From Prochlorococcus marinus str. MIT 9107 (lineage in GTDB: Bacteria > Cyanobacteriota > Cyanobacteriia > PCC-6307 > Cyanobiaceae), in the NCBI RefSeq assembly GCF_000759855.1, contig NZ_JNAI01000001.1:1-64000 (forward strand): a stretch of 64,000 bases of DNA. Reading direction: 5' to 3'. This document shows, one piece after another, positions 13,917 through 55,400 of the stretch. The notes below the pieces were generated by a model that saw nothing but the letters and a program-made list of their open reading frames with translations, ran no database searches and had not been told where the DNA came from. Both the position numbers and the translations under genes were made by a program. Position 1 is the stretch's first letter. Each line of letters begins with the position of its first letter.

Positions 13917-15284
13917 CTAAAGAAGACCAACAGGATCAGCTGCAACATCATCTGAAATTTTATTACCATCATTTGGGGGCTTATCTTTTAGAACAATTCT
14001 CAAGAGAACAGGTGCAAGAAAAGTAGTTCCAATAACCATTAATAAAATAGCTGCCTCAAGAGAAGGAGTTAACAACTTAGCGCTTGTTCCTAGCCCAAGG
14101 AAAATTAAACCAACCTCTCCTCTAGGCATCATACCCAAACCTACAACTAATCTATTTGTAGGTTTATCAATTGAAAATACCCATCCGGCTGCAATTTTTC
14201 CAATAATTGCAACAACTAATAAAAATCCTGCAACTACAAGAGCTGATCTACTTGTTGGATCAAGTGGATTGATAACTGATAAATCCATTCCAGCTCCAAC
14301 TAATACAAAGAAAATAGTTGCGAATAAGGAAACTAAAGGTAAAACAGATTGTTGTATTGCATGATTATTTTTAGAACTACTAAGAATTAATCCAGCTGCA
14401 AAAGCACCTAAAGCTGCTTCCAATCCAATGGCTGTTGCGACAAAACAACATAATACAAGTATTACAAAAGAAGCCACTACTACAGCTCCAGGAGCTTTTA
14501 ATCTATCTAATAACCAATCAAATCCTGGGGCTGCTGTTCGACTTAATGCAATAGCAGCAATAACAAATACTACTGCTGCCGCAACTAATTTAATAATAGG
14601 AGCAATTTCTAAAGAACCTCCTGCAGCAAGAGCCACAACAACTGCCAGAATAACAATTCCCAAAATATCATCTAGCACTGCTGCGCCAATAACAATTTGC
14701 CCTTCTCTAGTTTTTAAATATCCTAATTCACCGAAAACACTAGCAGTAATTCCTATACTTGTGGCTGTCATAGATGCACCAGCAAAAACTGCTGGAATTA
14801 GATCTACTTGGAAAATAAACATTAATCCAAGAGTTCCAAAAGCAAACGGTAAAATTACCCCAGCCATAGCAACAGTAAAAGCCTGCGCACCGACAGCTAC
14901 CAATTCCTCTAACTCACTTTCTAATCCTGTTAAAAATAAAAGTGCATATAAACCAAGTGTTGCGACTGCTTGGAGAGATGGAAAACTTTCGAAATAAACA
15001 TCAGGTACTGCTTCCGGAGGAATTGAAGCCAATGAACTAATAACATTTACAAGTCCCTCATTTAGTTCAGTTCCAGCTGAGGGCGGTATCAATAAATGGA
15101 ATCCTGAAGCCCCTATTACAACCCCTGCCAGAAGCTCACCTACAATCGTTGGTAAACTTAATCTTACTAATACTTCTGCTAATGCTCTTGCTGATAAAAA
15201 GATCAGTAGAAATCTTATAACTCCGATCAACGTTTCAGCAACTTCTAAATCATGCGCACTTAATTCAGCAAGTAAAGAATACAT
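13917..15284 (-). CDS. Na+/H+ antiporter of the CPA2 (NapA/KefB-like) family
   Basis: An integral membrane protein of 455 aa with roughly a dozen hydrophobic segments. The first is near residues 20-40, followed by a PTIVGELLAGVVIGASGF motif at about 45-62 that is typical of monovalent cation:proton antiporters. A GAAVLDDILGIVIL segment near 201-214 carries the paired Asp residues expected at the ion site. There is no C-terminal TrkA-N domain, unlike KefB. It probably exports Na+ in exchange for H+ across the plasma or thylakoid membrane. It is the first gene of a four-gene same-strand run with the hydrolase, epimerase and kinase. Confidence 0.92.
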   Translation of the reverse strand: MYSLLAELSAHDLEVAETLIGVIRFLLIFLSARALAEVLVRLSLPTIVGELLAGVVIGASGFHLLIPPSAGTELNEGLVNVISSLASIPPEAVPDVYFESFPSLQAVATLGLYALLFLTGLESELEELVAVGAQAFTVAMAGVILPFAFGTLGLMFIFQVDLIPAVFAGASMTATSIGITASVFGELGYLKTREGQIVIGAAVLDDILGIVILAVVVALAAGGSLEIAPIIKLVAAAVVFVIAAIALSRTAAPGFDWLLDRLKAPGAVVVASFVILVLCCFVATAIGLEAALGAFAAGLILSSSKNNHAIQQSVLPLVSLFATIFFVLVGAGMDLSVINPLDPTSRSALVVAGFLLVVAIIGKIAAGWVFSIDKPTNRLVVGLGMMPRGEVGLIFLGLGTSAKLLTPSLEAAILLMVIGTTFLAPVLLRIVLKDKPPNDGNKISDDVAADPVGLL

Positions 15285-15420: not shown

Positions 15421-17985
15421 ATGGCTATTGTCTTAAATATGGCTAATCCAATGAATTCCAACGAACCCTTAGATCTACGCTTGCCTACTCCTGGTTGCTA
15501 CTTAGATCCTGAGAAAGCTGGCATGGATTCGGATGCTGTTTTTCAAGGAATGACGGCTCATTTATTTTATACTCTTGGGAAATTAGCAACTTCTGCAAGT
15601 CCTCATGACTTGTATATGGCATTAAGTTACGCAGTTAAAGACAGGCTAATGACAAGATATTTAGCCAGCCAAGAAGCCATAAGAAAAAAACCACAAAAAA
15701 CAGTAGCTTACTTATCAGCGGAATTTCTAATAGGTCCTCAATTAAGTAATAACCTCCTCAATCTTGGCATAACTCAAGAAGCAGAAGATGCTTTAAAGAG
15801 ATTTGGGATTGAATCATTGTCAACAATTCTTGAAGTAGAAGAAGAGCCAGGATTAGGAAATGGCGGACTTGGCAGACTTGCAGCATGTTATATGGAATCA
15901 TTAGCATCCTTACAAGTACCAGCTGTGGGATATGGTATTCGCTATGAATTTGGAATATTCAATCAATTAATTAGAGATGGTTGGCAAGTTGAAGTGACAG
16001 ATAAATGGCTTAAAGGAGGATGGCCATGGGAACTTCCACAACCTGACGAATCATGTTTTGTGGGTTTTGGAGGAAGAACTGAAAGTTATAGAGATGACAA
16101 GGGAAACTATAGATCAAGATGGATACCTTCAGAACACGCAATTGGAGTTCCTCATGATGTTCCAGTCCTGGGATATAGGGTAAATACATGTGACAGATTA
16201 AGATTATGGAGAGCTGATGCGACAGAAAGTTTTGACTTTTATGCCTTCAACATTGGTGATTACTATGGAGCAGTAGAAGAAAAAGTTGCATCTGAAACTC
16301 TTTCAAAAGTTCTATATCCAAACGATGGAACCGATGAAGGTAGAAGATTAAGACTCAAACAACAACACTTTTTCGTAAGTTGCTCTCTTCAGGATATGTT
16401 GAGAAGCCTTGAAAAAAGATCAATACCAATAACTGAATTTCCTCTACATTGGACAGTCCAATTAAACGATACCCATCCAGCTATTGCTGTCGCAGAATTA
16501 ATGCGACTTCTTATTGACCAATATCAAATAGGTTGGGATAAAGCTTGGAACATAACAACATCATCGGTTGCATATACCAACCACACCTTACTTCCAGAGG
16601 CTTTAGAAAAATGGGATTTAAGTTTATTTAATGATCTTCTTCCTCGCCATCTAGAAATTATTTATGAAATTAATTGGCGTTTTTTACAACAATTAAGGCT
16701 ACGTTATCCTGGTGATGACAAAATTCTTCAAAAACTCTCAATTATTGATGAAGAAGGATCAAAATCAGTAAGAATGGCACACTTAGCTACAATTGGAGCA
16801 CATCATATAAATGGGGTTGCGACTCTTCACTCAGATCTCATAAAAAGACAGCTTCTCCCTGAATTTGCAAAATTATGGCCTGAAAAATTTACAAATGTTA
16901 CTAATGGAGTTACTCCAAGAAGATGGGTCGCCCTCTCAAACCCATCTTTATCTGACCTTTTAGAAAAAGAAGTAGGTCCTGATTGGATAACTAATATGGA
17001 ACTTTTGAAAAAGTTAGAAGGGAAAAAAGACGATGCCAATTTTTTACAAAAATTTGAGGAAACTAAATTAAATGGTAAACGAAAATTAGCTAGCTTTATC
17101 CATTCAAAAACAAGCATACTTGTAGATCCATCAAGTTTATTTGATGTTCAAGTAAAAAGAATTCATCAATATAAAAGACAACATTTAAATGCCTTACAAA
17201 TTATTGCTCAATATCTAAGAATAAAGAATGGCACAAACAAATATGAAGTACCAAGAACAATAATCTTTGGAGGTAAAGCTGCCCCTGGTTACTTTATGGC
17301 AAAACTTATGATTCGATTCATTAATGGTATTGCTGATGTAGTTAATTCAGATCCAGATATGGATGGTCTATTAAGGGTTGTTTTTTTGCCAGACTATAAT
17401 GTAAAGCTTGGTGAAATAGTTTATCCTGCCACAGATCTATCAGAACAAATTTCAACTGCAGGAAAAGAAGCTTCTGGTACTGGAAATATGAAGTTTGCCA
17501 TGAATGGTGCACTGACTATTGGAACCTTAGATGGAGCTAATGTAGAATTAAGGGATCTTGTGAATAAGGAAAATTTCTTCCTTTTTGGGAAAACTGAAAG
17601 TGAAATTATGGATTTAAAAAACAATAATTACTTGCCCAATACTTTTATTGAGAATTGTCCAGAGCTTAAAGAGGTGATACGCCTAATAGAAATTGGGCAC
17701 TTTAGTAACGGTGATAAAGAATTATTTAAACCCTTATTAAATAGCTTGACCGGACATGACCCATTCTTTGTAATGGCTGACTTCCAAGATTACTTAAATA
17801 AGCAGGATGAAGTTAGTAAATGCTGGAATAATAAAAATTCTTGGAATAAAATGGCATTATTAAATACAGCAAGATCAGGTTATTTTTCATCAGATAGATC
17901 TATAAGAGAATACTGCAAATCAATTTGGAAAGTCTCTCCAATGCCCGTAGAGATTACTTGCGATGTCGAAGAATTATCTAATTAA
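15421..17985 (+). CDS. glgP: Glycogen phosphorylase
   Basis: Phosphorolysis of glycogen to glucose-1-phosphate, the mobilisation of the daytime carbon store. 854 aa, full length. The pyridoxal-phosphate Lys is Lys691 in GTGNMKFAMNGALT, with GTLDGANVE following. VEEEPGLGNGGLGRLAACY near 139-157 and NDTHPAIAVAEL near 350-361 are also conserved. The ATG at 15421 gives a short extra MAIVLN; a second ATG at 15439 (MANPMNSNE) is an equally plausible start. The 3' end overlaps the next convergent gene by 8 nt. It is divergent from the antiporter with a 136-nt intergenic region. Confidence 0.97.
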   Translation: MAIVLNMANPMNSNEPLDLRLPTPGCYLDPEKAGMDSDAVFQGMTAHLFYTLGKLATSASPHDLYMALSYAVKDRLMTRYLASQEAIRKKPQKTVAYLSAEFLIGPQLSNNLLNLGITQEAEDALKRFGIESLSTILEVEEEPGLGNGGLGRLAACYMESLASLQVPAVGYGIRYEFGIFNQLIRDGWQVEVTDKWLKGGWPWELPQPDESCFVGFGGRTESYRDDKGNYRSRWIPSEHAIGVPHDVPVLGYRVNTCDRLRLWRADATESFDFYAFNIGDYYGAVEEKVASETLSKVLYPNDGTDEGRRLRLKQQHFFVSCSLQDMLRSLEKRSIPITEFPLHWTVQLNDTHPAIAVAELMRLLIDQYQIGWDKAWNITTSSVAYTNHTLLPEALEKWDLSLFNDLLPRHLEIIYEINWRFLQQLRLRYPGDDKILQKLSIIDEEGSKSVRMAHLATIGAHHINGVATLHSDLIKRQLLPEFAKLWPEKFTNVTNGVTPRRWVALSNPSLSDLLEKEVGPDWITNMELLKKLEGKKDDANFLQKFEETKLNGKRKLASFIHSKTSILVDPSSLFDVQVKRIHQYKRQHLNALQIIAQYLRIKNGTNKYEVPRTIIFGGKAAPGYFMAKLMIRFINGIADVVNSDPDMDGLLRVVFLPDYNVKLGEIVYPATDLSEQISTAGKEASGTGNMKFAMNGALTIGTLDGANVELRDLVNKENFFLFGKTESEIMDLKNNNYLPNTFIENCPELKEVIRLIEIGHFSNGDKELFKPLLNSLTGHDPFFVMADFQDYLNKQDEVSKCWNNKNSWNKMALLNTARSGYFSSDRSIREYCKSIWKVSPMPVEITCDVEELSN

Positions 17986-18875: not shown

Positions 18876-18949
<74 letters not shown>

Positions 18950-18986: not shown

Positions 18987-19363
18987 GAAAGCAGGAGAGG
19001 CAATCGCAAAAAAGTTTTATTTTGTTTCCAAAATAAAACTTTTTTGAGGAAAGTCCGGGCTCCCACATGGTCAGGCTTGCTGGGTAATTCCCAGTGCGGG
19101 TAACCGTGAGGATAGTGCCACAGAAACATACCGCCTAATACTTTTAGTATGGCAAGGGTGCAATGGTGCGGTAAGAGCGCACCAGCAACATTGAGAAGTG
19201 TTGGCTAGGTAAACCCCGGCAGGGTGCAAGGCTTAGTAGATTTATGACCATTACAAGATCTACTTTTAAGTGCCGCTTGAGACTGTGAAGTAATTCCAGC
19301 CCTAGATAGATGATTGCCCATCTTAGTTAAGATGAACAGAACCCGGCTTATGACCTGCTTTCC
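18987..19363 (+). ncRNA. rnpB: RNase P RNA (bacterial type A)
   Basis: The catalytic RNA that removes tRNA 5' leaders. The 5' end GAAAGCAGG pairs with CCTGCTTTC at 19354-19362 (P1). The hallmark blocks are present: GAGGAAAGTCCGGGCTCCCA near 19046-19065, GGTAAGAGCGCACCAG near 19170-19185, and ACAGAACCCGGCTTATGACC at 19336-19355. The P3 helix is unusually long and A/T-rich: a perfect 17-bp stem at 19008-19045 closed by TTTC. The RNase III gene begins 24 nt after the 3' end, so two RNA-processing activities are adjacent on one strand. Confidence 0.96.
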
Positions 19364-19387
19364 AATTGATGCGATTATTAAAATCAT

Positions 19388-24790: not shown

Positions 24791-26797
24791 ATGGTCGCTG
24801 CATCTGTTTCATTAGAATCACTCTGTGTAAATAGTATAAGAATGCTTGCTGTAGATGCAGTAAATAAATCTAATAGTGGACATCCTGGATTGCCAATGGG
24901 TTGTGCTCCTATGGGTTATGCATTATGGCAAAACATACTTAATCACAATCCTAATAATCCAAAATGGTTCAATAGAGATCGTTTTGTATTATCAGCTGGT
25001 CATGGCTGTATGTTGTTATATTCTTTGCTGCATCTGACAGGTTACAAATCGGTTTCCATAGAAGATATTAAAGAATTTAGGCAATGGGGATCCAAAACTC
25101 CTGGACATCCAGAAACTTTCGAAACTGAGGGAGTTGAAGTTACTGCTGGACCTCTAGGAGCTGGAATTTCTAATGCAGTTGGTTTAGCAATAGCGGAAAC
25201 TCACTTAGCAGCTAAATTCAATAAGCCTGATTGCGATATCGTTGATCATTATACTTACGTAATTATGGGTGACGGCTGCAATCAAGAGGGTATTGCATCA
25301 GAAGCTTGCTCATTAGCTGGTCATCTTAAGCTTGGGAAATTAATTGCACTCTATGACGATAATCAAATTACTATTGATGGGCGAACCGATGTTTCTTTCA
25401 CTGAAGATGTTTTGAAAAGATATGAAGCTTATGGATGGCATGTCCAACATGTTGAAGATGGAAATCATGATGTTAAAGGAATAACTGAAGCTATTGAAAA
25501 GGCAAAATTAGTTACAGACAAACCCTCAATAATAAAAATCTCAACAACCATAGGTTATGGTTCGCCTAATAAATCAGATACTGCTGGAATTCATGGAGCG
25601 GCTGTTGGAGAAGAAGAAGCTTCATTAACCAGAGAGTTTTTAAATTGGGAATATCCTCCATTTGAAATACCAGATGAAGTATATAAGCACTTTAGAAAAT
25701 CAATAAACAAAGGACAAAACTTAGAGAAAGAATGGGATTCTAGATTTGAAGAATATCAGAAAAAATATCCGTCTGAAGGAGCCGAGTTAAACAGAATGTT
25801 AAAAGGCCAATTACCTGAGAATTGGGACTCAGATCTACCCTCTTATACACCTGATGATAAAGGTTTAGCCACCAGAAAGCATTCACAAATATGTTTAGGT
25901 GCCCTTGGTCCTAACTTACCTGAATTAATAGGTGGTTCAGCAGACCTAACTCACTCTAACTACACAGATATCAAAGGAGAAACTGGATCTTTCCAGTCTC
26001 ACAGCCCTAAAAAAAGATATTTACATTTTGGAGTTCGAGAGCATGCAATGGCAGCAGTACTTAATGGGATTGCATACCACAATAGTGGCCTCATACCTTA
26101 TGGTGGAACCTTCCTTGTTTTCGCAGATTACATGAGAGGATCAATGAGGCTTTCAGCACTTAGCGAATTAGGAGTTATCTATGTATTAACACATGATTCA
26201 ATTGGTGTTGGAGAAGATGGTCCGACACATCAACCTATTGAAACTATCCCTTCTCTTCGTGCAATGCCTAACATGCTAGTTTTCAGACCAGGAGATGGGA
26301 ATGAGACGAGTGGGGCTTATAAGCTTGCTATTCAGAATCGAAAAAGGCCTTCTGCTCTTTGTTTAAGTAGACAAGGTATGCCTAACCAAGATAATACTTC
26401 AATCGAAAAAGTTGCATTAGGAGGATATATAGTTTCTGATTGCGAAGGGACGCCAGATTTAATCTTTATTGGCACTGGAAGTGAACTAAATCTTTGTATT
26501 GAAGCAAGTAAGGAGATTTCAAACTTAGGTAAAAAGACTAGAGTTGTCTCTATGCCTTGCGTAGAACTCTTCGAAGAACAAGAAGAATCTTACAAAGAAA
26601 GTGTTTTACCTAATAGTGTAACTAAGAGAGTTGTAGTAGAAGCTGCCCATTCATTTGGTTGGCACAAATATACAGGTTTTGATGGGATTTGTATTACTAT
26701 GGATAGGTTTGGCGCGTCAGCTCCTGGCGGCGAGTGTATGAAGAATTTTGGATTTACGGTTGAAAACGTTGTTAATAAGACAAAAGAAATTCTATAA
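24791..26797 (+). CDS. tkt: Transketolase
   Basis: A thiamine-diphosphate enzyme of the Calvin cycle and pentose phosphate pathway that transfers two-carbon ketol units. 668 aa. The ThDP motif [20 protein letters not shown] near residues 159-178 carries GDG. The N-terminal [14 protein letters not shown] and [14 protein letters not shown] segments and the pyrimidine-domain [15 protein letters not shown] are conserved. It is the last gene of acpP-fabF-tkt on the plus strand. It is convergent with thiC, which makes its cofactor precursor, 14 nt apart; that is probably coincidence of position. Confidence 0.97.
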
Positions 26798-28185: not shown

Positions 28186-28225
28186 TTATAAGTTTTTAAA
28201 GTTTTATTACTAAAGTTTGATCAGA

Positions 28226-28308
28226 TTTCCACTTCCCTTCATCAAAATGAATGATTCAGGTTCAAAGGGTATGATCTCAGCTAAGTTAAATTTCCTAGCA
28301 CCCCTAGT
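28226..28308 (-). promoter_or_regulatory. TPP-class riboswitch (THI element) upstream of thiC
   Basis: Read on the minus strand, ACTAGGGGTGC opens P1/P2. GCTAGG pairs with CTTAGC around an AT loop (P3). GCTGAGATCATACCC is the invariant pyrimidine-binding junction and P2 strand, GAACCTGA is the J2/4-P4 strand, and AGGGAAGTGG closes P4/P1. These match the TPP aptamer closely, in the same order and spacing as the thiM aptamer of E. coli. The P5 arm differs: ATCA/TGAT pairs around TTCATTT, and the usual UAAU loop and GCG junction are missing. About 43 nt separate it from the thiC ATG. No strong Shine-Dalgarno or terminator is visible, so the output mechanism is unclear. Confidence 0.85.
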
Positions 28309-28378: not shown

Positions 28379-28594
28379 CTATTTAACTTTTTGATAGGAC
28401 TTTATCTTGTTTAAAATATTTTTCCTATCCAATCTTCTACTTAGATCTTTCTCCAAAATAATTGAAATCCCCATTAAGCCAATAGGCAAATAAAATATCC
28501 TCCTAGTATTATCCCTCAATATTAAGCCAATAGCTGATATGAAAATCATCAAAGGAGCTACAAAAGATAAAAGAAATCTTTTATTAATTTTCAT
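28379..28594 (-). CDS. Small membrane protein of unknown function, 71 aa
   Basis: Two hydrophobic segments, about residues 7-26 and 33-47, separated by RDNTRR, then a basic tail (RRLDRKNILNKIKSYQKVK). The topology is probably a hairpin with the basic tail in the cytosol. No function is recognised. Its ATG overlaps the stop of the M20 hydrolase gene as ATGA (28591-28594), so translation is likely coupled to it. Confidence 0.7.
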   Translation of the reverse strand: MKINKRFLLSFVAPLMIFISAIGLILRDNTRRIFYLPIGLMGISIILEKDLSRRLDRKNILNKIKSYQKVK

Positions 28595-55328: not shown

Positions 55329-55400
55329 AGCGGATGAAGAGATTCGAACTCTCGACATTCTCCTTGGCAAGGAGATGCTCTACCACTGAGCTACATCCGC
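55329..55400 (-). tRNA. tRNA-Gly (anticodon GCC)
   Basis: A complete 72-nt cloverleaf on the minus strand from G at 55400. The acceptor GCGGATG pairs with CATCCGC and the discriminator is T. The D-arm is TAGCTCAGTGGTAGAGC. The anticodon stem-loop TCTCC-TTGCCAA-GGAGA gives anticodon GCC. The T-arm is CGAGAGTTCGAATCTCT. CCA is not encoded. Confidence 0.97.

Follow-up and report, generated by a model that had tools for sequence, protein, structure and literature searches.

Which part of its ligand does the RNA leader of thiC in this Prochlorococcus genome still recognize? The leader lies on the minus strand of the window, by which we mean the whole stretch of 64,000 nucleotides analysed. A first-pass annotation of this DNA described a textbook HMP (pyrimidine) half joined to a degenerate pyrophosphate-sensing arm and proposed relaxed or changed ligand specificity. 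The features needed for an answer are given below. Clade counts refer to the 99 distinct thiC leaders of the window's group, and arm positions follow E. coli thiM numbering, which we take to agree with the residues named in PMC3764141.

26812-28182, minus strand: thiC, HMP-P synthase, an ORF of 456 aa (relatives 93-98% identical; named by way of the cyanobacterial thiC leaders in excerpts of PMC1242208)
28217-28315, minus strand: TPP-riboswitch-like aptamer, full-length RF00059 match (model positions 1-105) at 53.2 bits
28298-28304, minus strand: GGGGUGC, 5′ strand of P2 and start of P3, in 97 of 99 clade leaders
28280-28299, minus strand: P3 hairpin GCUAGG...CUUAGC, part of the predicted lowest-energy fold
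28275-28281, minus strand: GCUGAGA, the J3-2 T-loop and putative HMP (pyrimidine) pocket, in 99 of 99 clade leaders
28267-28270, minus strand: ACCC, 3′ strand of P2, with GCUGAGAUCAUACCC in 98 of 99 clade leaders
28257-28260, minus strand: 5′ strand of P4, C57 C58 U59 G60, conserved in 97, 98, 99 and 93 of 99 clade leaders, respectively
28255-28256, minus strand: J4-5, A61 A62, with A62 in 95 of 99 clade leaders and A62-U77 in 84 of 94 equal-length arms
28241-28255, minus strand: P5 in the version of the first-pass annotation, AUCA/UUCAUUU/UGAU, seen in the letters, the predicted fold and the pairing of clade arms
28247-28250, minus strand: L5, UCAU, which fits UNRN and is the same in relatives with an intact junction
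28240-28241, minus strand: J5-4, U77 G78, where the pair that contacts pyrophosphate/Mg is altered (canonical C77 G78; C-G in 1 of 99 clade leaders)
28232-28239, minus strand: AAGGGAAG, 3′ strand of P4 and next junction (A79 A80 G81 G82 G83 A84 A85 G86)
28204-28224, minus strand: conserved downstream element CUGAUCAAACUUUAGUAAUAA, with UGAUC in 99 of 99 and UUUAGU in 98 of 99 clade leaders

Covariance alignment gave the leader 53.2 bits (E 1.7e-8), 1.1 bits below the RF00059 gathering score of 54.3, so that by this score it falls short of family membership. In the genus, 266 genomes yielded 72 with a match above the cut-off; a family sample of 400, at least 68 of them from the same genus, yielded 292. 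The match at thiC is the sole TPP match in the genome at E ≤0.001, and 34 nt separate it from the thiC start codon, which places it in the leader of a thiamine gene. An Rfam search of the leader at E ≤10 returned no HMP-PP riboswitch and, chance-level matches aside, TPP only. On the minus strand, the letters of the HMP half are as first described (GCTGAGATCATACCC, GAACCTGA and AGGGAAGTGG), including the 6-bp P3 (GCUAGG/CUUAGC), and the putative HMP pocket is present as J3-2 CUGAGA together with P2 GGGG/ACCC. Tail to tail with thiC, at a distance of 14 nt, lies a 668-aa ORF (24791-26797, plus strand) that by eye encodes transketolase, a TPP-dependent enzyme. A 71-aa ORF with hydrophobic stretches, likewise judged by eye, is located upstream of the leader (28379-28594, minus strand). 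The window also carries a class A RNase P RNA (18987-19366, plus strand) beside tRNA-Arg(cct) (18876-18949, minus strand) and a tRNA-Gly(gcc) (55329-55400, minus strand); these are its Rfam matches at or above the respective gathering scores.

The other half of the aptamer departs from the canonical form at specific positions. U59, G60, C77, G78 and A80 are among the highly conserved residues of TPP riboswitches; positions 59-60 and 77-78 lie near the pyrophosphate, and the direct contact is made by G78 (PMC3764141, in excerpt). According to the accessible part of PMC7824784, the pyrophosphate hydrogen-bonds directly to both C77 and G78. The window arm reads C57 C58 U59 G60 A61 A62, P5 U63 C64 A65, loop UUCAUUU, U74 G75 A76 and U77 G78 A79 A80 G81 G82. 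U59, G60 and A80 are all present (U59-A80 in P4, G60 in J4-5), and the pyrophosphate/Mg site has U77 G78 in place of C77 G78. The internal loop departs in two letters, U at C77 and A at U62. The ATCA/TGAT helix around a TTCATTT loop at 28241-28255 is indeed found on the minus strand, and no canonical GCG junction emerged in another register when sought by Rfam covariance alignment. The reported lack of a GCG junction holds for C77, which is U, and for G76, which is A, but not for G78, which is kept. The lack of a UAAU motif is literally correct as well, but its reading as an abnormality is not. The L5 letters UCAU (28250-28247) agree with the 'UNRN tetraloop' of PMC3764141 and are shared with many intact-junction relatives in other genera. 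In TPP riboswitches, the UNRN loop docks on P3. An absent UAAU is therefore ordinary, and we dropped it as a sign of degeneracy. The same applies to A79, which occurs in leaders with C-G (24 of 65 from other genera, 25 of 28 from the rest of the genus). The window arm is also one nucleotide shorter than that of its relatives (29 versus 30 letters).

Clade thiC leaders were gathered by gene (80 loci, and 40 more by thiC coordinates). Together with the window and L171, this brought the window's group to 118 leaders, and 99 distinct sequences remained when the first 95 nt were compared; 40 of the leaders were placed in the clade by thiC similarity and not by the tree, and L102 and L109 were left out because the leader was absent or too short. 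The group includes strain MIT 9302, presumably an HLII strain. On the thiC tree (FastTree, SH-like support, 152 rows, five of them without label: L102, L109, L256, L261 and L262; L144 and L124 labelled as C-G by hand, L124 ahead of the parsing of its arm), a starred branch (99) separates 80 rows of the group from the others. L108 is placed just beyond this branch, but a smaller tree puts it within the group with starred support (98).

Among the 99 distinct leaders, positions 77-78 are UG in 63, UA in 11, UU in 10, UC in 7, GG in 3 and AU in 2, with CG, GA and AG once each; L041 is the lone C-G leader. C77 is thus gone in 98, replaced by U in 91. As it is also lost in all 20 leaders L212-L231, taken mostly from near-complete genomes, U77 of the window is not a sequencing slip. 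Position 78 is G in 68 leaders, A in 12, U in 12 and C in 7, and it requires at least 15 changes within the group on the thiC tree. GAACCUG is retained in 90 of the 99. Compared with the invariant GCUGAGA, the changes at position 78 indicate that the pyrophosphate contact of the clade is drifting and the HMP pocket is fixed. The departure from the canonical TPP riboswitch is confirmed as real and clade-wide. General A/U drift was considered as its cause and found insufficient, as the sister clade, with arms apparently as A/U-rich, retains C-G in the leaders read.

The substitutions alter the predicted pairing of the arm. In the 94 clade arms of equal length (the register of the other 5 of 99 rests on their 3′ anchor, since their length differs), pairing is possible at 62-77 in 87 (A-U in 84), at 63-76 in 94, at 64-75 in 93 and at 65-74 in 82, but at 61-78 in 11 only. 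The exchange of C77 for U would thus lengthen P5 by one pair and leave a one-by-one mismatch. In sister leaders, C77 opposes A62 or U62, often with an extra mismatch at 63-76, and among 65 leaders from other genera all but one (64) have U62. A covariation check of P5, proposed with the original annotation and run on the clade, revealed a compensatory change at pair 63-76 alone (L038), a result equalled by 13 of 500 shuffles. The P5 pairing of the clade is therefore a matter of conservation.

When the window leader is folded in silico, the structure of lowest energy contains P3 and the P4/P5 arm and lacks P1 and P2, in place of which GAUCA of the aptamer core pairs with the downstream UGAUC. 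Such a fold would suit the ligand-free state. We also considered the downstream element as a possible anti-aptamer platform: UGAUC and UUUAGU are conserved, but complementarity of the downstream region to the aptamer does not reliably exceed that of shuffled flanks in the clade. Among 110 clade leaders, 25% had a complementarity to the 5′ strand of P1 that ranked within the top 5% of shuffles, and 3% had such a complementarity to J3-2; the corresponding values for 28 leaders from the rest of the genus were 79% and 0%. A GUGAUC form of the downstream UGAUC appears in many other genera.

Loss of the contact pair is not confined to the window's clade, as weakly scoring Rfam matches from other genera of the family display a like dissociation. 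We sampled 162 loci from other genera by Rfam score (the 30 best, 38 more with high scores, 80 from the middle and the 14 lowest), of which 159 could be parsed (L256, L265 and L268 were left out). C-G was in place in 134 of the 159 and missing in 25, spread over 14 of 51 genera; because loci were sampled by score, these figures are no natural frequencies. 'Missing' here means that the dinucleotide is not in place, and a few leaders, for example L359, retain one of its letters. The CUGAGAU..ACCC core is intact in all 25, with the qualification that outside the genus leaders were sought by Rfam match, a search biased towards an intact core. Other sampled members of 9 of the 14 genera keep C-G. 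Genus g56 has taken the same path as the window's clade, with UG in several members and UU or UC in others; two of its arms with UG (L185 and L211) were already present in a first set from other genera, in which C-G occurred in 63 of 65. Further loci without C77-G78 in place are L255, L257, L258, L259, L260, L263, L264, L266, L346, L354, L358 and L359, and in L255, L257 (CCUGGGCCGG/CCGGCCUAGG) and L264 P4/P5 has become a near-continuous hairpin. Arms of genus g34 with one extra nucleotide retain C-G. Outside the family, C-G was present in all 40 fetched loci from 39 genomes (57 matches listed), 37 of them read by script (L381 re-read by eye, since the script had misplaced its match) and 3 by eye. 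The C-G label needs 10 changes on the thiC tree, and at least 5 of these changes are forced by starred branches. Several related lineages thus appear, from their sequences, to have lost C77-G78 separately.

In the rest of the genus the picture is mixed. C-G was present in 28 of 28 distinct leaders, a biased choice consisting mainly of the 29 best Rfam scores. Seven further genomes of the genus were located through thiC irrespective of Rfam score. L274, L404 and L406 kept C-G, and L403 (G082), on a separate branch of the genus, had lost it, with UU at 77-78 and an intact core. In L275 (G115), L277 (G104) and L407 (G265), of which the last two are sisters on the tree, the aptamer is wholly eroded, core included, next to a full-length thiC match; the downstream element of L275 is still recognisable. 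L404 (G052) and L406 (G073) of the sister clade present the reverse of the window's clade, as C77-G78 is kept and the HMP half is changed (GAGAUUGUACCU; GCCGAGA). These cases demonstrate that a thiC leader can decay in either half. Within the window's clade, only one half has decayed. A TPP match was absent or very weak in 26 genomes, and in 17 of these no thiC could be located. G142 has a strong TPP match (L166) besides two weak ones on contig 11 (L270 at 14792-14884 and L272 at 16088-16180, 24.9 bits each, about 1.3 kb apart).

What does such an RNA respond to? We propose that it is a descendant of a thiC TPP riboswitch that is indifferent to pyrophosphate, has lower affinity, reads the HMP/thiamine moiety and still lowers thiC expression. 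From the sequence comparison we give this reading a probability of roughly 0.47, that is, slightly below one half. The pyrophosphate-binding internal loop would have been altered or closed when C77 became U and paired with A62, lengthening P5. One mismatch between A61 and position 78 would then replace the canonical open two-by-two loop and leave position 78 free to vary. The RNA would recognize thiamine compounds by their HMP end, hardly distinguishing phosphates and with lower affinity, and in the cell it would be occupied by any HMP-bearing vitamer in good supply, including TPP. An abundance of such compounds would lower thiC expression, a direction adopted by analogy with TPP riboswitches.

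The homology of the leader to RF00059 over its full length speaks for this reading, as does the presence of C-G in 1 of 99 clade leaders versus 134 of 159 in other genera and 40 of 40 outside the family. Since the leader retains its HMP pocket, three-way junction and downstream element, sensing of the HMP end has most likely persisted. The computation shows that C77 is lost and position 78 variable, that the loss has gone to fixation in the clade, with recurrences elsewhere, and that the rest of the aptamer is conserved. Relaxed or changed recognition of the phosphates would be expected to leave such a dissociation. Persisting ligand binding and switching, and a lowered affinity, are what we infer from it. 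Half-site binding is real, if weak, as thiamine and TMP occupy one half of the site and bind a TPP aptamer incompletely in single-molecule work (PMC4775224, in excerpt). The specificity proposal of the first-pass annotation thus survives with respect to an intact HMP half and an altered pyrophosphate-contact residue that is fixed in the clade and recurrent elsewhere. It had relied in part on the wrong feature, as the information lies in positions 77-78 and not in a missing UAAU. Against the proposed HMP-end sensor stand the retention of G78, the eroded leaders and those with a damaged HMP half, and the window fold without P1 and P2. Moreover, E. coli thiM requires pyrophosphate for switching and has a KD of 50 µM for thiamine versus 50 nM for TPP (PMC4112796, in excerpt), so that a switch insensitive to phosphate may not be strong enough.

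The retention of G78 leads to the best of the alternatives, which we nevertheless consider unlikely: a weakened TPP riboswitch in which the pyrophosphate is bound, despite the loss of C77, through G78, G60 and contacts to the backbone or Mg, with a higher KD tuned to the TPP level of the cell. As the directly contacting G78 is kept in the window and in 68 of 99 clade leaders, the RNA may still bind TPP, and U59 (99 of 99), G60 (93 of 99) and A80 (96 of 99) are conserved as well. Yet G78 is absent in 31 of 99 clade leaders in which GCUGAGA persists without exception, and the near-continuous helix that replaces the loop in L255, L257 and L264 leaves no evident pocket for pyrophosphate.

Similarly unlikely, in our estimate, is a non-switching relic: thiamine control of thiC would have been given up in small genomes, and the core either decays slowly or is kept for other reasons such as leader folding or mRNA stability. 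Decay known in the genus counts toward this explanation, both the complete erosion in L275, L277 and L407, two of them sisters, and the damage to the HMP half in the sister-clade leaders L404 and L406. Well-conserved diatom TPP aptamers are unresponsive to thiamine or HMP (PMC9544697, in excerpt), and no known B1 transporter is reported to occur in high-light Prochlorococcus (PMC10470507, in excerpt). However, neutral decay would strike both halves, whereas in the clade GCUGAGA is invariant while J5-4 drifts, and leader folding alone is no reason to retain CUGAGA.

A more far-reaching version of the HMP-end sensor, in which the TPP riboswitch of thiC was repeatedly converted in picocyanobacteria to half-site sensing of free HMP or HMP-P, appears improbable to us. 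If true, thiC would be controlled by its own product, HMP-P, and not by the finished cofactor. That the leader is an ordinary TPP riboswitch with its pyrophosphate arm misplaced by the alignment is very improbable. The score, just 1.1 bits under the cut-off, speaks for it, but 94 of 99 clade arms have the same length and align without gaps, with C-G at 77-78 in L041 alone.

The vitamin economy of these organisms gives the question a wider meaning. A gene for a TenA-family protein (PF03070, 108.6 bits) is present in this genome. High-light Prochlorococcus are reported to possess TenA_C, for which intracellular salvage of degraded B1 has been speculated (PMC10470507, in excerpt). SAR11 requires a thiamin precursor that is present in spent Prochlorococcus medium (PMC6775983, in excerpt). 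Looser control of thiC could alter the amount of thiamin precursor made and thereby vitamin exchange in the ocean. The ligand of the thiC leader in this clade is now a testable question. A clade without C77 and with a drifting position 78, together with sister genera whose losses seem to be separate, provides a series for testing the loss or change of riboswitch specificity. The sister genera with losses have close canonical relatives, and the E. coli thiM riboswitch reportedly needs pyrophosphate (PMC4112796, in excerpt). Among the open-literature titles and abstracts listed, a scope outside which most subscription papers fall, none describes the loss of C77-G78, and the excerpts of PMC1242208 and PMC2662882 only name the thiC riboswitch.

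Several known systems resemble this leader in part. The TPP aptamers of diatoms are likewise conserved in marine phototrophs with their response in doubt, but they are eukaryotic, reside in the 3′UTR and have a P4/P5 reported as well conserved (PMC9544697, in excerpt). The HMP-PP riboswitch (thiS motif) is also a thiamin-pathway riboswitch with a ligand other than TPP; in contrast to the window leader, which does not match it, it is an unrelated compact aptamer inside a terminator stem (PMC6478431, in excerpt). A comparable element, likewise at thiC, was predicted in 2005 for Prochlorococcus and Synechococcus and named 'putative TPP riboswitch', with nothing on the pyrophosphate arm in the excerpted text (PMC1242208). 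With the canonical RF00059 riboswitch as represented by E. coli thiM, the leader shares the P1-P5 layout, the letters of the J3-2 HMP pocket, U59/A80 in P4 and the position upstream of thiC, and its L5 letters fit UNRN. The clade differs from it in the replacement of C77 by U or another letter, a position 78 that is not conserved, an A62 that can pair with U77 and a shorter arm.
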